Positions 27,374 through 38,401 of a DNA stretch of 46,872 nt are shown piece by piece. This stretch comes from Gammaproteobacteria bacterium (GTDB lineage Bacteria; Pseudomonadota; Gammaproteobacteria; Tenderiales; Tenderiaceae). The DNA is taken from positions 1 through 46,872 of the forward strand of contig JAKFXL010000047.1 in assembly GCA_021731365.1 (NCBI GenBank), given 5' to 3'. The first letter of the stretch is position 1, and each line of letters begins with the position of its first letter. Position numbers and translations under genes: made by a program. The notes under the pieces were generated by a model. The model was given only the letters and a program-made list of their open reading frames with translations, did no database searches and was not told where the DNA came from.

Positions 27374-30322
27374 TTAGCGGTCTGTTTGTTGTGTGTTGAT
27401 GAGGCGCTGTTCCATAAACTTATGAATGGGCATGGGTTCTGAGATGGCAAAACCTTGCAGGTAATCAACACCTATTTCGCGTATTTTTGAGATGATTTTG
27501 TTGTTTTCCACGTATTCGGCAATGGTACGGATACCCATGACGTGGCCGATTTCGTTGATGGAGCGGACCATGGCAAAATCAATGGGGTCGTCGACGATGT
27601 CGACGATAAAGTTGCCATCTATTTTCAGGTAATCAACGGGCAGGTTTTTCAGATAAGCAAATGATGAGAGGCCGCTGCCAAAATCATCAAGTGCAAAGCG
27701 GCAGCCGCGTTTTTTCAGCTCTTTAATAAAGTGCACTGCCTTGGCGAGGTTGGCGATGGCGATGGTTTCGGTAATTTCAAAGCAGATCACGTTGGATGGC
27801 ATCTGCCAGTGGTCTATCTGTTCATGGAGAAACTGCAGAAACTGCTCATCGTTGAGCGATGCGCCGGATAAATTGATGCAGCATATATCATGTTGCATAT
27901 CGGGGTTGTGGTGGGCGTATTTCTGGTAGATGGAAAATGTTTTACGGATGACCCAACGGTCTATTGTTGGCATCAGGTTGTAGCGTTCTGCAGCGGGTAT
28001 AAATGCCCCAGGCGGTACCAGCTGGTTGTTTTCATCCACCATTCGTAATAGTACTTCGTAATGGGCACCTATTTTATCGTTGTCGTAGGTGGGCACGATA
28101 GGTTGGCAATAGAGTATGAAACGGTCGTCTGTGAGTGCCTGAGCCAACCGGGGCACCCACTGCATTTCACCATAACGCTGTTGTAGTTCTTTATCATCTG
28201 AATGGTAGACGTGTACCCGGTTGCGGCCTTTATCTTTAGCAGCATAACATGCGGTATCTGCGGCACTCATGACGCTGGTGATGTTTTCACTGGATTTTGT
28301 AATGGCTACCAGGCCGATGCTGACGCCGAGTTCAAATGCTTTGTCGCCCCAGACGAAACGAAAATCTTTAACAATGGCACAGATCTTTTCAGCAATCTCT
28401 TTGGCCTTTGATAGTGAACACTCACCCAGCAGTATTCCAAACTCATCGCCACCCAGCCGCGCCAGTGTGTCGCGATCACGTATGTTGTTCGATAGCACAG
28501 TGGCTAATTGGCGTAGTAGCTCATCACCGGCAATGTGGCCGCAAGTATCATTGACCAGTTTGAATTGATCAAGGTCAAGATAGCAGAGTGCATGTTCGTA
28601 ATTATATGTCTGGGTGCTTTCCAGTAACAGGTTGAGGCGGCGTTCAAATTCCCGTCGATTAATCAGTTCTGTCAGGGCGTCGTGTGAGGCTTGATAGTTC
28701 ATCTGACTCGCCAGCGTACGTACAGCAGTGACATCGTGCATTATAACAACAGCACCGATGGCGCGGTTATCACGGTTGAGCAGTGGTGTAATTGCAATTT
28801 CGATGGCGTAGTTATGGCCGTAACGGTTGGTGAGGATGACGTTAGGTTCTAAAAGGTTGTTTTCATCTTTCAGGCAGAGTTCTACCAAATTGGTAATGGG
28901 TGTGGCGTTGATCTGGTCGTGAATGGAAAATATCTGGTTCAGATCGAGGCCTTTTGCCTGGGTATGGCCCCAGCCGGTGAGATGTTCTGCCTGGGGATTG
29001 ATGTACTCAACCTTGCCATGTATGTCGGTAGTGATAACACCATCAGCAATGGCTTGTAGTGTAACTAAGGCTTGCTCTTTTTCACGGAACAGCGCCTCTT
29101 CCAGATTTTTGTGTTCGGTAATGTCGGTGCGAATGGAGATGTATTGATAGGGGTTGTTGTTTTCATCCATAAAGGGAACGATGGTGGAATCGACCCAGTA
29201 GTAGTGATTATTTTTAGTGCGATTTTTTATCTGACCATTCCAGACTTTGCCGCTGGAGATAGTGCGCCACATTGCCTCGAAGAACTCTGGTGGATGGTGT
29301 CCAGAGCTGAGAATGTTATGGTTTTTCCCCTGCAGCTCATCTCGTGAGTACTGGCTGACATCAATAAGCCGCTCATTTACATAAAGGATTTTCCCGCTAA
29401 CGTCGGAGATGCTGACGATGGAGTGTTGGTCCATGGCAAATTTCTGGTAATTGAGGTCGGTAACGGTACGTTTTAATTTTGCCGCACTATTGCGTAGGCG
29501 TAAAACGATGTAGCTGATATAACCTAATAGCGCCAGTGTAAAGACGTACAGATAACGTTGGTAGATACGGTTTTCGTCATTTTTTATTTTGTGGTAGTAG
29601 CTGTAGTTGCTTGATAGATTGTTGAGCTGTTGGGCGATGTTGGTATTGGTGGCTTGCCCGACCAGATCGTCTACGATGGGGTTTTCGTTAAGGATCATAT
29701 GGGTGTGTAGCAGCAAATGATCGAGTGTCTGCTGAAGTTCATCTGGATAATGTGAGCGGCTGGCATTGATAATATCTATTATCTGAAGGACCTGTGTTTT
29801 GAATGCGTCATCAGCGGTGACGCTATAACTTAAGGTGTTGCTGAGCAAACCGTATATCTGGTTGATTAATGTTGTGCTGACATTTTGTTCAATCATTTTT
29901 TTAATCATGCTTTCAACGCCCGCGGGCAGATAGCGTGAGGAGTTTTTTAGGATGGCATTTCTTGATTTGAAGGTTTCGACGACGTCGATTTTATTTTTAA
30001 TCAGAGTCTCAAGTGCATTGATATGTTGGTCGCTGTATTCCGCGCCGTGATGTTGAGTATTAAACTCATGGATCTGAAGTTGTTGAAGCAGCGCCAACAT
30101 CTTGAGCTGTTCGTTTTTGAGAGTGTCGTAATGCATTAACAGGTTATAACGTACCTTTAAAATATCCTGATTAAAGGTGGCGTCGGTCTGTTCTATTTTT
30201 CCTAAGAGTTCAATGACCTGGTTGTATCGCTGTGTATGGTTATCCTGAGTATTAATATAGAGGAATGCCAGTGCCGCTGAGGCAACCAGGATAATGGCGA
30301 TCTGTCGGAATACACTGCTCAT
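27374..30322 (-). CDS. Membrane sensor with PAS-PAS-GGDEF-EAL domains (cyclic-di-GMP turnover)
   Basis: This protein makes and/or breaks cyclic di-GMP in response to a signal. The 982 residues contain TM1 at about 7-24 and a helical periplasmic sensor (25-255) containing DILKVRYNLLMHYDTL, which resembles the DAHL ligand-binding domain. TM2 lies at about 257-275, PAS-1 at about 295-405 and PAS-2 at about 415-535. The GGDEF domain has an intact GGDEF at 624-628 and an inhibitory RxxD site at 615-618. The EAL domain has its signature as EVL at 756-758, with DDFGSG at 879-884 and K900. Both cyclase and phosphodiesterase residues look complete. The ATG overlaps the peroxidase stop (ATGA at 30319-30322), so the two are coupled. 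Confidence 0.92.
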   Translation of the reverse strand: MSSVFRQIAIILVASAALAFLYINTQDNHTQRYNQVIELLGKIEQTDATFNQDILKVRYNLLMHYDTLKNEQLKMLALLQQLQIHEFNTQHHGAEYSDQHINALETLIKNKIDVVETFKSRNAILKNSSRYLPAGVESMIKKMIEQNVSTTLINQIYGLLSNTLSYSVTADDAFKTQVLQIIDIINASRSHYPDELQQTLDHLLLHTHMILNENPIVDDLVGQATNTNIAQQLNNLSSNYSYYHKIKNDENRIYQRYLYVFTLALLGYISYIVLRLRNSAAKLKRTVTDLNYQKFAMDQHSIVSISDVSGKILYVNERLIDVSQYSRDELQGKNHNILSSGHHPPEFFEAMWRTISSGKVWNGQIKNRTKNNHYYWVDSTIVPFMDENNNPYQYISIRTDITEHKNLEEALFREKEQALVTLQAIADGVITTDIHGKVEYINPQAEHLTGWGHTQAKGLDLNQIFSIHDQINATPITNLVELCLKDENNLLEPNVILTNRYGHNYAIEIAITPLLNRDNRAIGAVVIMHDVTAVRTLASQMNYQASHDALTELINRREFERRLNLLLESTQTYNYEHALCYLDLDQFKLVNDTCGHIAGDELLRQLATVLSNNIRDRDTLARLGGDEFGILLGECSLSKAKEIAEKICAIVKDFRFVWGDKAFELGVSIGLVAITKSSENITSVMSAADTACYAAKDKGRNRVHVYHSDDKELQQRYGEMQWVPRLAQALTDDRFILYCQPIVPTYDNDKIGAHYEVLLRMVDENNQLVPPGAFIPAAERYNLMPTIDRWVIRKTFSIYQKYAHHNPDMQHDICCINLSGASLNDEQFLQFLHEQIDHWQMPSNVICFEITETIAIANLAKAVHFIKELKKRGCRFALDDFGSGLSSFAYLKNLPVDYLKIDGNFIVDIVDDPIDFAMVRSINEIGHVMGIRTIAEYVENNKIISKIREIGVDYLQGFAISEPMPIHKFMEQRLINTQQTDR

Positions 30323-31434
30323 TTTATCCCTTCGTAGGGGTACTCTCCGGTCAAGGTATTTAAAAAACTAACAATGAGTGCAACATCGGTATCAGGGATG
30401 GTGCGGCCAAGCTGATATTCGGCCATGATGTGTACGGCCTGTTCCAGGGTGTCCCTTGAGCCATCATGAAAATAGGGCGCGGTGAGTGCCACGTTACGCA
30501 GACTGGGTACCCGGAATCGGTACTTGTCCTCTTTCCGGCCCGTGACATTAAAACGTCCTAAATCGGCACGTGTTATGTTACCCCGGTTCTCAAAATAGTT
30601 TTTAGCAACACCAAAGATCTGAAACATATTGCCGCCGATGTTCATGCCCTGGTGGCAGGCAACACAGCCGTAATCCTTGAAGAGCTGGTAACCGGTTTTT
30701 TCGTTTTCGCTAATGGCGTCTGTTTCGCCGCGAAGATAACGGTCAAAACGGGAGTTGGGGGTGATTAAAGATTGTTCAAAGGCAACGATGGCGTCTTTGA
30801 TGTTCTCTTCGTTAATCCCATCGGCATAGACTTTGCCAAAAAGCGTCTCATATTCGGTGATCTGTTGTAACTTTTTTTCCAGTCGGTCCCATGTAATCCC
30901 CATTTCCAGGGGGTTGTGTATGGGGCCATCGATCTGTTCGTTTAAAGTGGCGGCGCGGCCATCCCAGAACCAGGCAATCTGGTAGGCGGAGTTAAATACA
31001 GACAATGTATTAACTTGGCCCCGTGCGCCTCCTGCCCCTGTTGAGACCTGTTTGCCATCTGCCCCGCCAGAACTTAAGTTATGGCAACTGATGCAAGCCA
31101 TAGTGTTGTCCTGAGAGAGACGGGTGTCAGAAAACAGCATTTTACCTAACGCAACCTTGTCAGGGTTGAGTTTGACGGTTAAAGGTAGTGGCTGGATTGG
31201 TTCATGAATGGTGATGAACTGCTCGGTGCCTGAGAGTGATATTTCAGGTTGCGGAGGTTCCGGAGCGGTGTGGTCGCCAAATACCAGCCATATGGCGGTG
31301 CCAAAGAGTACTAATAGGAATGATAAAAATAGAAAAAATGCCCAGCGTTCACTGTGCTCGTCCACTAGGCTGGGGGGGGGAGTGGGGTTGCCATATGTTT
31401 TATTTGTAGGTCGTCTGTTATTGGCGTCTGGCAT
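30319..31434 (-). CDS. Membrane-anchored diheme cytochrome c peroxidase (MauG/CcpA family)
   Basis: This enzyme reduces hydrogen peroxide in the periplasm using electrons from small cytochromes or quinol. The 371-residue protein has an N-terminal cytoplasmic tail and one membrane helix (about 31-52, WAFFLFLSFLLVLFGTAIWLVF) instead of a cleaved signal. The two c-type heme motifs are CISCH at 114-118 and CVACH at 257-261. Family blocks visible are LGKMLFSDTRLS, SVFNSAYQIAWFWDGRAATLNEQ, HNPLEMG and the C-terminal RVPSLRNVALTAPYFHDGS. It is the first gene of a coupled pair with the GGDEF-EAL sensor. The tight link suggests that peroxide or redox state and cyclic-di-GMP signalling are tied together, but this is inference. 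Confidence 0.93.
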   Translation of the reverse strand: MPDANNRRPTNKTYGNPTPPPSLVDEHSERWAFFLFLSFLLVLFGTAIWLVFGDHTAPEPPQPEISLSGTEQFITIHEPIQPLPLTVKLNPDKVALGKMLFSDTRLSQDNTMACISCHNLSSGGADGKQVSTGAGGARGQVNTLSVFNSAYQIAWFWDGRAATLNEQIDGPIHNPLEMGITWDRLEKKLQQITEYETLFGKVYADGINEENIKDAIVAFEQSLITPNSRFDRYLRGETDAISENEKTGYQLFKDYGCVACHQGMNIGGNMFQIFGVAKNYFENRGNITRADLGRFNVTGRKEDKYRFRVPSLRNVALTAPYFHDGSRDTLEQAVHIMAEYQLGRTIPDTDVALIVSFLNTLTGEYPYEGIK

Positions 31435-32250: not shown

Positions 32251-33294
32251 TTACATGATGGGCCCTTCGGGTCCTAGTGGCTCGTTGGCCTCTGGCAGAT
32301 GGTGGTCGTTAAACTCCTCCACCAGCGCAGCCGCCTCATGATGTTCTTTAAAGCGGGCAATGTGGAAAAGTGCATCACCTTCGTTTGCCAGCGGCAGGTT
32401 GGTACGGCCGATGATGATGCCGTTGTAGGGGGATTTGACCTGGACCTCTTTTTCGCCAAATGGATCGGAGATGACCCCCAGCAGGCTCTCTTTAGCCACA
32501 TGGCCGCCCAGTTTGACCATGGGGCGCAGGATACCGCTGCTGGCGGCACGGATCCAGTGGGTGGTATTGGTGATGACCGGATCAATCTGGCCCGGATGGC
32601 GGCGGCTGGCGGGTAACATGCCCAATGTACGCATCACCTCTACCACCCCCCGGACGCCAGCGCGGATGGCTATTTCGTCGAAGCGTAACGCCTCACCGGC
32701 CTCGTAGAGCAGTGTGGGGATGCCCGCTTCGGCGGCGGCTTCGCGCAGTGAGCCATCGCGTAGTGAGGAGGAGATGATCACCGGGGTACCAAAGACCCGC
32801 GCCAATTTTTCGGTCTCCGGGTCGTCGAGGTTGGCGCGAATCTGTGGCAGATTGCTGCGGTGGATGGCCCCGGTGTGGATATCGATGCCGTGGGTGCTGT
32901 TGGCGACGATCTCACGCATGAAGATGCTGGCCAGTCGCGCTGCCAGTGAACCGGTTTCGCTGCCGGGAAAGACCCGGTTAAGGTCGCGGCGATCGGGCAG
33001 GTAGCGCGACTGGTTGATAAAACCGTGTACGTTGACGATGGGCACGGCGATGAGGCTGCCGTGCATCTGTTTGAGTGCGCTTAACTTGAGCAGGCGGCGG
33101 ATGATCTCAACGCCGTTGATCTCATCGCCATGGATGGCGGCACTGACAAACAGGCTCGGCCCGGGTTTGCGGCTATGGATGACATGCACCGGCATTGACA
33201 TGGGGGTGTGGGTATAGAGTTTGCCGACGGGCAGATCGATGGTGATGCGGCTGCCGGGTTTGACCTCCGTGCCGTTGATGGTGATCGATTGCAT
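32251..33294 (-). CDS. M14-type zinc hydrolase, succinylglutamate desuccinylase/aspartoacylase-like
   Basis: This is a zinc-dependent amidohydrolase of the carboxypeptidase-A clan. The 347-residue protein has the zinc site HGDEINGVE near residues 54-62 and the arginine block RYLPDRRDLNRVFPG. IDIHTGA near 138 supplies a second zinc ligand, and LLYEAGEA holds the likely catalytic glutamate. A C-terminal beta barrel (VKLGGHVAKESLLGVISDPFG) follows, as in AstE/AspA proteins. Its ATG overlaps the rimK stop (TAATG), so the two are co-translated. In this setting it probably is not the arginine-catabolic AstE. A role in removing amino acids added by RimK is attractive but unproven. Confidence 0.85.
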   Translation of the reverse strand: MQSITINGTEVKPGSRITIDLPVGKLYTHTPMSMPVHVIHSRKPGPSLFVSAAIHGDEINGVEIIRRLLKLSALKQMHGSLIAVPIVNVHGFINQSRYLPDRRDLNRVFPGSETGSLAARLASIFMREIVANSTHGIDIHTGAIHRSNLPQIRANLDDPETEKLARVFGTPVIISSSLRDGSLREAAAEAGIPTLLYEAGEALRFDEIAIRAGVRGVVEVMRTLGMLPASRRHPGQIDPVITNTTHWIRAASSGILRPMVKLGGHVAKESLLGVISDPFGEKEVQVKSPYNGIIIGRTNLPLANEGDALFHIARFKEHHEAAALVEEFNDHHLPEANEPLGPEGPIM

Positions 33295-34199
33295 TAACCT
33301 TTGCCCTTGGTGCGTGTTTTGTGCGGTTTGGCGTTGTTTTCGATGAGCTCAATGATGATGCTGGCGATGTTTTTGCTAGTGGCGGCCTCAATCCCCTCAA
33401 GGCCGGGAGAGGAGTTGACCTCCATGATCAGCGGACCACGGCTGGAGCGCAGCAGGTCAACACCGGCAACATTCAGGCCGAGGGTGGCGGCGGCGCGGAT
33501 CGCCATGGAGCGCTCCTTGGGTGTGATCTTGATGAGGGTGGCGCTGCCGCCGCGATGCAGGTTGGAGCGGAACTCCCCTTCTTGGGCACGCCGTTCCATG
33601 GCGGCGACCACCTTGCCGCCAACAACCAGACAGCGGATGTCGGCACCGCCCGCCTCTTTGATGAACTCCTGTACCAGGATGTTGGCTTTTAGTCCCATGA
33701 AGGCCTCGATGACACTTTCAGCAGCCTTTTTGGTCTCGGCCAGTACTACGCCGATCCCTTGTGTGCCTTCCAATAGCTTGATCACCAGCGGTGCGCCGCC
33801 GACCATCTTGATCAGATCCTCCACATCATCAGGGGAGTGGGCAAAACCGGTGATCGGCATACCCACCCCCTTGCGTGACAGCAGCTGCAGGGAGCGCAGT
33901 TTGTCGCGGGACCGGCTGATGGCGACCGACTCATTGATGGAGTAGACCCCCATCATCTCAAACTGGCGTACCACGGCGGTACCATAGAAAGTGATAGAGG
34001 CCCCGATGCGCGGGATGATGGCGTCGTATCCCACCAGATCGGCCCCTTTGTAATGAATGCTCGGTTTGTCGGCAGCAAGATTCATGTAGCAGCGCAGGGT
34101 ATTAATGACGTGCATCTCGTGGCCACGCTGAGTCCCTGCCTCAATTAACCGGCGGGTGGAGTAGAGCTTGGGGTTGCAGGATAAGACACCGATTTTCAT
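33294..34199 (-). CDS. rimK: RimK-type ATP-grasp glutamate ligase
   Basis: RimK uses ATP to add glutamate residues, in E. coli to the C-terminus of ribosomal protein S6. The 301-residue protein is of E. coli size and starts [22 protein letters not shown]. It shows the ATP-grasp parts: [15 protein letters not shown] (substrate side), [19 protein letters not shown] (nucleotide-binding glycine loop), [21 protein letters not shown], and the magnesium-binding [17 protein letters not shown]. It sits between a RimB-like protease gene (53-bp gap) and the M14 hydrolase gene (1-bp overlap). All catalytic segments are intact. Confidence 0.94.
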
Positions 34200-34252
34200 A
34201 GATATTCCCTTATAGTGTGGCCGCTGGCTGATGCCAGCATAGCCCTGTGTAA

Positions 34253-34723
34253 TTATAGTGTAATGATGGGGCCACGGAGCTGTTCGCGACTGGGCTTACC
34301 CAGCAGGTAGGCGGCCCCGGGGTCGATCTGCATACGTGTCTGCATAGCCGTGCGTCCCAGTAACATGCGAAACCGCATGGTATCGCGGTTGGTGAGTGTC
34401 AGTTCAATGGGCCAGGTCTCACTGCCGGCAGAGAGCTGGGTGCTGATGACATAACGGCGCTCTTTGTGGCCGCCAGAGTCAGTCACATTGCGCTCGTCAA
34501 CAACCGGCGCGCAGCAGATCACCTCGTTATCCCGGCGGCGCTGTCTTGGGTGGATACCAAACCGAACCATGGCAATACCATTGTCACTGTAGGGTTCAAT
34601 GAAAAAGGCGTGCAGGGCAGAGGTGCGGGCACCACTGTCTACCTTGGCTTTAATCCAGGGGAGACCCAACTCCGGGAGTGCCAGCCATTCACGCCAGCCG
34701 ACGGTAATCAGACTATCTGTCAT
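34253..34723 (-). CDS. RimB-like retropepsin (ATP-dependent zinc protease family)
   Basis: The 156-residue protein begins at ATG 34723, which overlaps the end of corA by 11 bp; a GTG 9 bases upstream is an alternative. It has the aspartic-protease signature [13 protein letters not shown] (Asp-Ser-Gly) and the later MLLGRTAM strand typical of single-domain retropepsins, which act as dimers. The family is often annotated as 'ATP-dependent zinc protease', although the visible motif is aspartyl. In Pseudomonas the RimB member works with RimK, apparently trimming its glutamate tails. The neighbouring rimK here supports the same link. Confidence 0.85.
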
Positions 34724-35813
34724 TGATGTCACTGTTGCGCTGTAACCACCCTTTACGTTTGAAAAAAACCAGCATCACCACGGCGATGGTAACCATAATG
34801 CCCCACGCCATTGGGTAACCATAGTACCAGCTGAGCTCAGGCATCGCCCACGGGCTGTGGCTGTTGTTGCCAAAATTCATGCCGTAGACCCCCGCCACAA
34901 AGGTGAGTGGCATAAAGATGGTGGCGATCAGGGTCAGCACACGCATGGTGTCGCTGAGTCGGTTGCTGACGGAGGAGAGGTAGACATCCAGCATGCTGCT
35001 GGCCATGTCGCGGTAGTTCTCCAGTAGATCCATAATCTGGATATTGTGGTCGTAACAGTCGCGCAGATAGATATGGGTGGTATGTTGGATGAGGGGTTGA
35101 TCGTCGTGCAGCAGGTGGTTGATCACCTCACGCTGGGGCCAGATCATGCGGCGCAGCTGCAACAGCTCACGGCGAATGGTGTGGATCTGGCCGAGTGTCT
35201 GACGGTTGGGGGATTCGAGCAGCCGGTCCTCCAGTGCCTCAATGGTGGTACCAAACGCCTCCAATAGCGGAAACCCCATATCCACCACCAGATCGATCAC
35301 GGCATAGAGCAGGTAGTCGGCCTTCTGGGTCGAGAGTCGCTCGCCATGGCTGCGTAGCCGTTTGCGGATCGGCTCCAGCAGTGAATCGTCGCCAGGGTAG
35401 AGGCTGATGAGGTAGTTGCTGCCGAGGAACAGTGACAGCTGCTCCACCTCAATGGCGTCGCTGCTGCCCACCGGCACCGCCAGGGTGATAAAGAGCTGCT
35501 CATCATATTCGTCGACCTTGGGGCGCTGGCCACTGTTGAGCACATCCTCCAGTGCCAGGGGGTGCAGGCCAAATGCCGTGCCCAGCGCCTCCAGCAGCGC
35601 GGGCTGTACCTGCCCGGTAATGTGAATCCAGGTGCTGGTGGAGTGTGTTAAATACTCTTTGCAGGCGGCGGGATTATCCAGTTGCAGCTCTGTGAGCTGG
35701 CCATCACTGTAACCAATCAGGTGAAAACGGGGGGGTGTTGCCTCCGTCTCACGGGCCGTCAGGGTGCCGGGGGAGGTGCCAGGTGGGTGGTAGTTTTTCG
35801 TGAAATAGGCCAT
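34713..35813 (-). CDS. CorA-family divalent cation transporter (CorA/ZntB type)
   Basis: This is a pentameric inner-membrane channel or transporter for magnesium, cobalt or zinc. The 366-residue protein has a large cytoplasmic N-terminal domain, a long stalk helix (about 240-300, with [31 protein letters not shown]) and two C-terminal membrane helices. The selectivity motif YGMNF follows the first helix, and [19 protein letters not shown] is the second. The ion cannot be chosen from sequence. It appears to be the first gene of the corA-rimB-rimK-M14 run. The 72-bp gap 35814-35885 separates it from the hexaheme gene. Confidence 0.92.
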
Positions 35814-35885
35814 TGCTGTTTGCCTGCGGTGTCGTGGGCCGCTGAGTGGAGTTGATTAGCAGTGTATGGCAAATGGCCGTCAGAG

Positions 35886-37628
35886 TCATGGCACCGTTGA
35901 TGGCTGTCTGGCGTAGTAGGCGGCAATTGCCTTGATTTCGATCAGGCTCAAACCGTAGGCCATCGCCTCCATTTCGGCATCTTTGCGTATCCCCTGCTGA
36001 TACTGCTTCATGGCGACCACTATATAAGGTTCGCTCTGTCCCGCCAGCCGTGGCACACCGGGGGTAGTGCTAATGCCGCCGTCACCGTGGCAGCGGCTGC
36101 ATCTTTTTTCCACGATCATCTCTGCCTCTTCCGGCAGCCAGGTCTTTACCTGCTGTGGTGCCTGTGCGGCAAAATAGTGGGCAATCTGCTGCAGAGTGGA
36201 GGTATCGGTTTCGGCGGCCACCTTGGCCATGGCCTCATTTACCCGTTTGCCACTGCCGTAGGCCTGAACCGCGCTGATCAGATAGGCAGCGCTCTGCCCG
36301 GCCAGGCTGGGGGTGGTCTCGGGCGTCGGGCTGATGCCCCGCTCACCGTGGCAGAGGGTGCAGCCGCTGCTCAGTGCCTCACCCGTACGGGTATCGCCAG
36401 CGCTGGTCGGCGGGGTTGGGGTGAGTGGCAGCAGGGCGTAGTGGTAGGCGACCTTCTCGATGTCGGTATCACTCAGGTAGGCGACCATCTGCTGCATGGT
36501 GGTGTGCTGGCGTTCGCCGGTCTGGTAGGCGAGTGTTGCACTCACCAGATAGGGCACACTCAGTCCGGTGAGTGCGGGCACAACAGCGCTGCGGTCAGCA
36601 CCGTGGCAGCTGTCGCAGTTGCTGGCGATACGTTTGCCGTCGGCCAGCGGGTTGAATGCCTGGGGCTGGTTGAGGGTTTTGTGCAGCGGCGACTCCGGCT
36701 GCTGCCGGGCGTAGTAGGCGGCAAGATTGGCGATGGTGGTATCGCTGAGGTTTTTGACGGGCCCTTTCATCAGGGGGCTGTTGCGTTGACCGTCACGATA
36801 CTGTGTCAGCGCCTTACGCAGATAGTCGGCGCTCTGGCCCGCAAGGTTGGGCACGTTTGGGTTCAGGCTGTTGCCATCATAACCGTGGCAACCGGCGCAG
36901 TGGCGCGCGGCCGTTTTGCCCGCGGTGGCGTTGCCCTGGCTGGGGGCTGGTGCCTTGACGGGGATTTGATGGGCGTACCAGACACCCAGGTTGTAGATAT
37001 CCCGGTCACTCAGGGAGAGATGAAACTGCCCCATGATCGGGTCGTGGCGTTTGCCGTTGAGGTAACTCTTCAGGCTCGGTACAAAATACTCCAGCGGCAT
37101 GCCCGCCAATGTCGGGATTGCCTGCTGCTGACGGTAGAGCTGTGCGCGGTCGTGGCAGGAGTCACAGACGACGGCGAGTGTTCGGGCCGCAGCCCGTGCC
37201 TGTTTGTCCTTGAGCACAGCTTTGGACTGATCGTCGGCGACCGCGCCGCGCCAGGGGGTCTCAAGGGTGGCGTACCAGGCGGTGATGTCGGCAAGTTGAA
37301 GCGGATTGAGGGCGCTAGCCACCGCCTGCATGGCCAGATCCTGGCGCGCACCCACCTGATAGGCAAGCAGTGAGCGGACCAGATACGCCTGCTCCAGCCC
37401 GGCAATAAAGGGGGCACCGCTACGGGCATCCGCCCCCTCCAGGCCGTGGCAGGTGGCGCACCGTTCAGCCAGCACCTTGCCTGCGGCGGGGTCGCCAACA
37501 CGGGCCTTGCCGCTGACGGGCGGGTTAGCTGGATGGCTGGGTGGAGGGGTGGTATCACAACCGCTGATCAGCAGCAGCGCTACCATCCATGCCCAGACAC
37601 CGCGCCGAACCGGTATCACAGGTATCAC
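35886..37628 (-). CDS. Hexaheme lipoprotein of six tandem cytochrome c domains
   Basis: This is a periplasmic electron carrier. The start is GTG 37628, which overlaps the previous stop as GTGA and gives 580 residues. It opens with a lipoprotein signal (VRRGVWAWMVALLLISGC), so the protein is probably anchored to a membrane. Six c-type heme motifs follow, each in its own domain of about 65-105 residues: CATCH at 57, CDSCH at 155, CAGCH at 244, CDSCH at 338, CTLCH at 423 and CSRCH at 510. Each domain repeats the c4/c553 pattern: heme motif, a P-x-LAG or similar turn, a YL..aL..Y..G.R helix, a distal methionine (for example DLAM, DPIM, SPLM, DAEM) and a final I..laAYYA helix. Six tandem copies of this domain are unusual. 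Confidence 0.88.
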   Translation of the reverse strand: MIPVIPVRRGVWAWMVALLLISGCDTTPPPSHPANPPVSGKARVGDPAAGKVLAERCATCHGLEGADARSGAPFIAGLEQAYLVRSLLAYQVGARQDLAMQAVASALNPLQLADITAWYATLETPWRGAVADDQSKAVLKDKQARAAARTLAVVCDSCHDRAQLYRQQQAIPTLAGMPLEYFVPSLKSYLNGKRHDPIMGQFHLSLSDRDIYNLGVWYAHQIPVKAPAPSQGNATAGKTAARHCAGCHGYDGNSLNPNVPNLAGQSADYLRKALTQYRDGQRNSPLMKGPVKNLSDTTIANLAAYYARQQPESPLHKTLNQPQAFNPLADGKRIASNCDSCHGADRSAVVPALTGLSVPYLVSATLAYQTGERQHTTMQQMVAYLSDTDIEKVAYHYALLPLTPTPPTSAGDTRTGEALSSGCTLCHGERGISPTPETTPSLAGQSAAYLISAVQAYGSGKRVNEAMAKVAAETDTSTLQQIAHYFAAQAPQQVKTWLPEEAEMIVEKRCSRCHGDGGISTTPGVPRLAGQSEPYIVVAMKQYQQGIRKDAEMEAMAYGLSLIEIKAIAAYYARQPSTVP

Positions 37629-38401
37629 CGGGGGTTGCGTTGGGGCATGGCGCAGTAGAACTGCTGCTGCACCTCGTCTGGCAGTTTGTAAAACCACATC
37701 TGGTAGAGGGAGATCAGTACTTGAGCGGCAAAACTCAGCCCCATCAGTGCGCCACTGCCCACCACCACCCAGGCAAACGGTTGGTAAACCTTGGTGAGGT
37801 ACCAGGAGAGGATGTCAAAAATGATCGATACAAACGGGATCACAATCAGCGTGATCTTAAGCCACTCATGGCGCAGGTAGGCGTGAATAAAGACCATGCT
37901 GACCACAAAAAAGATAAAGGTCAGGCCAAACAGATGGATGTGGGAGACCCGCACCAGGGTGAAAATATCGGCCCCGGTATCCTCGGCCGCCATTTTTTTG
38001 ATCCCGTCGTAACTCTCCAGGGAGGGGAGGTGCGGGTTACGGCTGTTGTGACAGGTGATGCAGCGGTCATTAAAGATGTTTTTCAGATCCCCATCATAGG
38101 CCGCCTGTTTGGCCCCTTCGTGCAGCCAGGCGATGATCCGCACATTCTCCTCGGCAGGCAACATGCCCGACATTGGCCCTTTCAGCGCCGCCTCCAGTTT
38201 GGTGCCGGTTTTGCTGCCGCTGTAGGCGATGACGATGTCCTGTACCGACAGCCCCGGTTTGCCGTCCCGGTTGTGGTGCGACTCAAAGATGTAGATCATC
38301 GCAAACAGGTAACCAAAGCTGAGCACACCAATCGCGCCGGTATAGAGCAGCCGCTGTACAACCGGCAGATGGGAGAAGTGCAGGGTAAAACGTTGATTCA
38401 T
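37625..38401 (-). CDS. Membrane-bound monoheme cytochrome c-like protein
   Basis: The 258-residue protein has an N-terminal membrane helix (about 18-40) and a periplasmic stretch carrying one heme motif CITCH at 114-118 (DRCITCHNSRNPHLPSLESYDGI). Three more membrane helices follow (about 150-172, 178-200 and 207-232). The first of these is preceded by RVSHIHLFG, which has histidines that could bind a further heme or a quinone site. I do not recognise a named family. The stop overlaps the GTG start of the hexaheme lipoprotein gene, so the pair is translationally coupled and probably forms one electron-transfer unit between membrane quinones and the periplasm. No oxidoreductase gene lies beside it in this window. 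Confidence 0.75.
   Translation of the reverse strand: MNQRFTLHFSHLPVVQRLLYTGAIGVLSFGYLFAMIYIFESHHNRDGKPGLSVQDIVIAYSGSKTGTKLEAALKGPMSGMLPAEENVRIIAWLHEGAKQAAYDGDLKNIFNDRCITCHNSRNPHLPSLESYDGIKKMAAEDTGADIFTLVRVSHIHLFGLTFIFFVVSMVFIHAYLRHEWLKITLIVIPFVSIIFDILSWYLTKVYQPFAWVVVGSGALMGLSFAAQVLISLYQMWFYKLPDEVQQQFYCAMPQRNPR

Follow-up and report, generated by a model that had tools for sequence, protein, structure and literature searches.

Cytochromes of the c4 type consist of two domains, each with a CxxCH heme-binding motif and a distal methionine. A related two-domain protein, the periplasmic diheme shuttle PdsA, is listed with those components of the MtrCAB pathway whose function has been characterised (PMC8805035). 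In Candidatus Tenderia electrophaga, Tel_04230 was named a 'predicted hexaheme lipoprotein' and an earlier-proposed, possible route of extracellular electron transfer, and its expression clustered with cyc2 and a bd oxidase; the protein is named in passing, and the text at hand gives no membrane partner or domain analysis for it (PMC5371394). Here we describe two adjoining genes in a 46,872-nucleotide stretch of DNA from a member of the Tenderiaceae, a relative of microbes that grow on cathodes (contig JAKFXL010000047.1 of assembly GCA_021731365.1; 'the window'). On the reverse strand at 35886-37628 lies the gene of a six-domain cytochrome c lipoprotein ('the array'), and at 37625-38401 on the same strand the gene of a four-helix membrane protein with one c-type heme motif, CITCH, after which we call it the CITCH protein. 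Array and CITCH protein together vary the theme of the c4-type electron carriers, joined here by a membrane protein from a family that has no name.

A six-domain c4-type lipoprotein

The array protein comprises 580 amino acids counted from the GTG at 37628, and Pfam recognises cytochrome c domains in it. All six CxxCH motifs and six candidate distal methionines are retained without exception across 10 aligned homologues, which together with the open reading frame bears out the preliminary description of six c4/c553-like domains in one lipoprotein, each with its own CxxCH and distal Met. Following the reverse strand, and with approximate limits, these are domain 1 (CATCH, M100; 37251-37499), domain 2 (CDSCH, M199; 36957-37205), domain 3 (CAGCH, M287; 36690-36938), domain 4 (CDSCH, M378; 36420-36653), domain 5 (CTLCH, M467; 36159-36401), and domain 6 (CSRCH, M553; 35898-36134). 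Each domain of the predicted protein would be loaded with heme. The best NCBIfam match was PdsA (NF049874), in five stretches with E 7.1e-50 and a score of 169.6 bits, which is below the curated cut-off of 330; PdsA has two domains and the array six. Cytochrome c4 shares the sequence family of the array domains as well as CxxCH and the distal Met, but it lacks the six-domain arrangement, the lipobox, and the linked membrane cytochrome. Which domains form the most c4-like pair depends on the method. The best profile match among PDB entries was cytochrome c4 6q2u, aligned to domains 3-4 (E 3.3e-34), whereas in the AlphaFold2 model it is residues 326-490, corresponding to domains 4-5, that can be superposed with Z scores of 18-20 on structures of c4 and of the c4-like portion of TsdBA (5lo9). 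For the complete chain, the model has modest confidence values (predicted local distance difference test, pLDDT, 70.6; predicted template modelling score, pTM, 0.60).

A tree of 116 domains was calculated from 13 six-domain proteins, nine four-domain proteins, and one diheme protein. In this tree, which is based on few columns and whose bootstrap was almost but not fully settled, the domains at position 1 cluster in a clade of their own, as do those at positions 2, 3, 4, and 6 (position 3 more weakly, 91/78), and those at position 5 are not resolved. The last domains of the six- and four-domain proteins cluster together with support 91/98. Because the positions form their own clades, the architecture of the array is, as far as the domain sequences tell, old and ordered. 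An origin by recent triplication of a c4 pair was not supported, as the tree contains no grouping of odd versus even positions. An old pair duplication may lie behind the array, the deep forks of the tree being without resolution.

The N-terminus carries a lipobox (LISGC) with its cysteine at 37557-37559, reverse strand, followed by aspartate. A lipobox rule recognised 20 of 25 distinct six-domain proteins; of those it missed, L031 has Arg in place of Cys, L155 and L063 look lipoprotein-like by eye, and no lipobox was seen in L144 and L159. The residue after the cysteine is Asp in 13 and Glu in 4 of the 20, and Asp in 1 of 58 other lipobox open reading frames of the same loci (Fisher p 4e-9, with homologues that are not independent of each other and a 1/58 derived from the odds ratio). 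In Escherichia coli, Asp at this position retains lipoproteins in the inner membrane. The Asp residue thus suggests that the array lipoprotein is retained in the inner membrane and not sent on to the outer one. The relay between the inner membrane and chemistry outside that had been proposed for the pair is plausible, with Asp favouring an inner-membrane anchor over an outer-membrane one.

The CITCH membrane protein

The open reading frame of 258 amino acids and its AlphaFold2 model (pLDDT 75.6, from an alignment of 18 sequences) agree with the earlier reading of a four-helix membrane protein with CITCH. The predicted helices span residues 14-42, 146-171, 179-203, and 209-236, and the monoheme c domain is located between helices 1 and 2. 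Its heme-binding motif (38048-38062, reverse strand; C114, C117, H118) is invariant in all 18 sequences, as are H154, H156, and H173. The protein had no match in Pfam (E 0.01) or NCBIfam, and Pfam at the same threshold detected neither a NapC/NirT nor a b561-type domain. Comparison with the PDB yielded no convincing solved relative (best Foldseek E 1.5 with this model of moderate confidence, best sequence search E 0.035). Within the scope of Pfam, NCBIfam, and the PDB, the CITCH protein thus represents a family without a name. It would occupy a place in the pathway, between inner membrane and periplasm, comparable to that of the inner-membrane quinone modules CymA, MtoC/CbcL/MtrH, and NetBCD, but it differs from them by its single CxxCH and by matching no Pfam or NCBIfam model. 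The family, found in 57 of 369 sampled gammaproteobacterial genomes, merits a name and a profile model. Small gene groups at loci L145-L148 contain heme-less relatives of its membrane part that carry an SHVH-type motif; in L146, the locus tested, a DUF4198 gene was confirmed.

Co-occurrence and linkage of the two genes

An even sample of 369 gammaproteobacterial genomes was searched with an array profile (cut-off E 1e-60) and for the CITCH protein (cut-off E 1e-20). The array profile matched in 21 genomes, whose loci comprise 17 with six CxxCH motifs, three with four, and one that is cut by a contig end. In 30 of the 57 genomes with a CITCH protein the best score exceeded 360 bits (the close subfamily), and in the rest it stayed below 279. 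The close subfamily is present in 21/21 array genomes, which belong to 11 families, against an expectation of 1.7 (hypergeometric p 1.6e-27; this statistic, like those for MtrB and Cyc2-like proteins below, ignores phylogeny). Full-length six-domain homologues beside a CITCH gene, which had been named as the thing to search for, do exist: the two genes are directly adjacent in 9/17 cases, in genomes G000 (the genome of the window), G001, G004, G085, G087, G212, G213, G315, and G344. The opposite expectation, domains with no linked membrane partner, describes the other eight only in part; here the six-domain gene is unlinked and a CITCH gene is encoded elsewhere in every one of the genomes.

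A contig scan recovered 568 CITCH relatives, and the loci of the best 80 were inspected; this sample is uneven and its genomes overlap with the set of 369. Downstream of the CITCH gene, on the same strand and within 100 bases, a six-domain gene was found at 13 of the 80 loci. A four-domain array lies within 1.2 kb at 32 loci, although at L061 a contig end truncates the gene, which may be a six-domain one. At several other loci a monoheme gene is close to the CITCH gene. Since six-domain, four-domain, or monoheme genes accompany it, the CITCH protein is the constant part and array length the variable one. Large octaheme cytochrome genes adjoin the six-domain gene at L164:490-7657 and L036:10159-11799, three of them in one locus.

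Relationship to Tel_04230 and the Uet cluster

Genome G004, a relative in 2 contigs, offers a link to the published hexaheme lipoprotein. At 3.601-3.610 Mb it encodes a triheme, a triheme, another protein, a triheme, two others, and an undecaheme cytochrome, in the order and spacing of Tel_16515-Tel_16545. From this anchor, and with locus tags in steps of five, expected positions of other Tel genes were computed. The six-domain lipoprotein gene of G004 is located at 0.901 Mb, within about 2% of the ~0.92 Mb expected for Tel_04230, and a fused cytochrome-porin gene at 0.752 Mb, compared to ~0.76 Mb for the cyc2 homologue Tel_03480. One gene speaks against the identity: Tel_16525 is described as a tetratricopeptide repeat protein (PMC5371394, text at hand), but the 506-amino-acid product at its place in G004 has an At5g54830-like domain and no tetratricopeptide Pfam match. 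By gene order, not by accession, G004 very probably is Ca. Tenderia electrophaga or an organism very near to it, and its lipoprotein very probably Tel_04230. The lipoprotein of the window is 58% identical to that of G004, and both possess six heme motifs and a lipoprotein signal; through the gene-order identity of G004, it very probably represents the counterpart of Tel_04230. Whether the family had already been characterised was a point raised by the preliminary description. The name given to Tel_04230 is in print; no characterisation of this protein and no other description of such a six-domain array were found in the literature.

The genome of the window also harbours a ten-gene cluster of the Uet electron-uptake type (locus L190, contig C40, 2634-14806). 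Its genes encode, in this order, a tetraheme cytochrome, a PPIC-type isomerase, a protein of 608 amino acids, two triheme cytochromes, a protein of 514 amino acids, a triheme cytochrome, two NHL-repeat proteins, and an undecaheme cytochrome. This fits the published uet list with UetA (tetraheme), UetB (isomerase), UetC (porin), UetDEG (trihemes), UetHI (NHL), and UetJ (undecaheme), as given in the available part of PMC10734462. The 608-amino-acid protein has no Pfam match and, by its place in the cluster, would be the Uet porin. The undecaheme cytochrome is 76% identical to that of G004; it had long matches in 10 of 11 family members tested, a short match only in the remaining one (G002), and no match of any kind in nine outsiders. 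The gene pair is located outside this cluster, on contig C25, and the cluster as read contains no such gene; nor was an inner-membrane electron carrier seen in it.

Candidate partners in other genomes

In the DNA inspected around the best 80 CITCH genes, MtrA or MtrB is encoded at 8 loci, NrfD at 14, and a nonaheme protein at 13. MtrA, MtrB, or NrfD genes are found near a four-domain array and CITCH at 17 of the 32 four-domain loci, versus 0/13 six-domain loci and 0/35 other loci; the record titles of these 17 name beta- or alphaproteobacteria. Two loci that were profiled with Pfam and NCBIfam encode MtrB/PioB, a DmsE-type decaheme cytochrome, NrfD, and an NrfC-type protein. Of the 13 nonaheme loci, L066 and L077 lack both kinds of array, six- and four-domain. 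At L088:7223-9346 and L086:10471-12501, the nonaheme gene stands beside a four-domain array and CITCH, and its product shows a weak C-terminal match to a b561 family; it is possibly of the MtoC/CbcL type.

In the even sample, MtrB occurs in 6/21 array genomes compared to 27/369 overall (p 0.0022), and MtrB or a Cyc2-like protein in 10/21 compared to 78/369 (p 0.0048). In three genomes the distant, second CITCH subfamily adjoins a Cyc2-like gene: divergently in G050 (L021), abutting in G031, and 0.9 kb apart in G210, the latter two found among 14 further loci read. A CITCH gene of this subfamily in G304 has a Cyc2-like match ~3 kb away. Genes of the second subfamily together with those of Cyc2-like porin-cytochromes were located at L191:3352-5501 (abutting), L021:1-1945, and L192:3360-6199.

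For the genome of the window itself, MtrAB was rejected as the partner, because PF11854 was found in none of 11 genomes including this one and a repeat search also was without a match. Sulfur oxidation of the dsrA type was likewise rejected, no dsrA match being present in this genome.

Proposed function and alternative explanations

We propose that the products of the two genes act as a single electron-relay module in the cell envelope. The CITCH protein would reside in the inner membrane, with its one c-type heme facing the periplasm, and the array would be lipid-anchored at the periplasmic face of the same membrane, with its six c4/c553-type heme domains arranged in a chain. The CITCH heme would exchange electrons with the chain, through which they would travel to or from cytochromes that are either soluble or located in the outer membrane. 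In the Tenderiales organism of the window, the partner on the far side would most likely be Uet, and that on the near side the respiratory chain. A relay of some kind, periplasmic and anchored in the inner membrane, is the simplest account and appears likely to us. The observations behind the module comprise the invariant ligands, the c4-like domains, the co-conservation with CITCH, the Asp after the lipobox Cys, and the presence of Uet in the same genome. That this relay has a role with extracellular electrons is a tentative reading which falls slightly short of probable; such a role is likely in Tenderiales, given the company with Uet, and plausible elsewhere. This role is supported by the naming of Tel_04230 as a candidate route, the four-domain loci with MtrA, MtrB, or NrfD, the co-occurrence with MtrB, and the second CITCH subfamily adjacent to Cyc2-like genes.

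Several observations weigh against a relay for extracellular electrons. The hexaheme gene Tel_04230 was not differentially expressed, according to the text of PMC5371394 at hand. The direct neighbours of the pair in the window include no oxidoreductase, just as the preliminary description had stated, and no redox enzyme is linked to it. The 13 linked six-domain loci contain no gene for MtrA, MtrB, NrfD, or a nonaheme protein and a single NrfC-type match (L059). Cyc2-like proteins are not clearly enriched (6/21 array genomes versus 54/369 overall, p 0.069) and are not supported as a general partner; the genome of the window has no Cyc2-like match at E 1e-8 and no MtrB match. Of the 21 array genomes, 11 lack a match to either protein; Uet is present in G000 and G001 among them, which leaves nine that lay outside the Uet search. 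The co-occurrence statistics carry the phylogenetic caveat given above, and the retention rule for Asp belongs to another lineage.

An ordinary respiratory function without outside electrons is a real rival because of these nine genomes. The array would then be a multi-unit c4 that supplies a cytochrome oxidase with electrons from the bc1 complex or another donor in the periplasm, CITCH being a docking subunit. The closest solved relatives of the array indeed are c4 proteins, among them chain K of the Pseudomonas aeruginosa bc1-cbb3 supercomplex (8smr). However, the genome of the window has no ccoN above the curated cut-off and only a divergent one, a few kb from which lies a gene for a diheme cytochrome; it encodes a separate c4-type diheme protein on contig C26, and six domains would be superfluous for an ordinary donor. 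On balance, we regard this explanation as rather unlikely. The hemes might also serve as an electron store, a capacitor at the inner membrane that buffers a fluctuating donor and has no defined partner on the far side. Selection on capacity rather than geometry would fit arrays of six or four domains beside CITCH and a single-heme gene at other loci, but the clades formed by positions 1, 2, 3, 4, and 6 in 13 six-domain proteins imply a fixed order that capacity alone would not need, and a store seems improbable. Least probable by our estimate, and doubtful throughout, is a CITCH protein that acts as a sensor or assembly factor instead of an electron carrier, its gene being a neighbour of the array gene by descent only. 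The heme-less relatives beside a DUF4198 gene and the 8/17 six-domain genes that are not adjacent to CITCH would be in line with such a role; the heme motif conserved in 18/18 sequences and the close CITCH subfamily in every array genome, even where unlinked, argue against it.

The inner-membrane-anchored relay could be part of a broader scheme, which we consider unlikely: CITCH and a tandem c4 array as a general, hitherto undescribed 'boom' that reaches across the periplasm to each lineage's own outer-membrane conduit. The conduits would be Uet in Tenderiales, MtrAB in some beta- and alphaproteobacteria, and Cyc2-like porins for the second CITCH subfamily. If true, it would provide the inner-membrane end that is apparently missing from the Uet cluster. 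For the open question of electron passage through the periplasm in bacteria that oxidise cathodes or minerals, a conserved six-unit chain with CITCH is a concrete and testable candidate.

Gene organisation and neighbouring genes

The stop codon of the CITCH gene and the start codon of the array gene overlap in a GTGA (37625-37628, reverse strand) that can be read in the DNA. Earlier taken as the link between the two genes, this overlap is present but not general. Among the 13 linked loci, two have a 4-base overlap, ten a gap of 0-89 bases, and one a 104-base overlap if the longest open reading frame is used. The start of the array gene is ambiguous: another in-frame GTG is located three codons beyond that at 37628, no clear ribosome site was seen upstream of either, and the mechanical open reading frame begins further upstream at 37697. 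A promoter scan yielded no promoter-like sites, and four terminator-like sites were found compared to 2.4 expected.

According to open reading frames, Pfam, and NCBIfam, one flank of the pair consists of corA, rimB-like, rimK, and AstE/AspA-like genes; the other, as read from the sequence and not searched with profiles, is gatCAB. About 4.5 kb away and on the same strand as the pair, a gene for a MauG/MbnH-like diheme enzyme is located at 30319-31434. An open reading frame of 728 amino acids at 25067-27253 matches nothing in Pfam or NCBIfam. Proximity of the array gene to rimB-, rimK-, and AstE-like genes was noted in three genomes (window 32251-37628, L154:4709-9100, and L163:3276-8443; in L154 and L163 these names are based on resemblance of the N-terminus only). 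In this neighbourhood, the array has six domains in the window and in L154, and four in L163.

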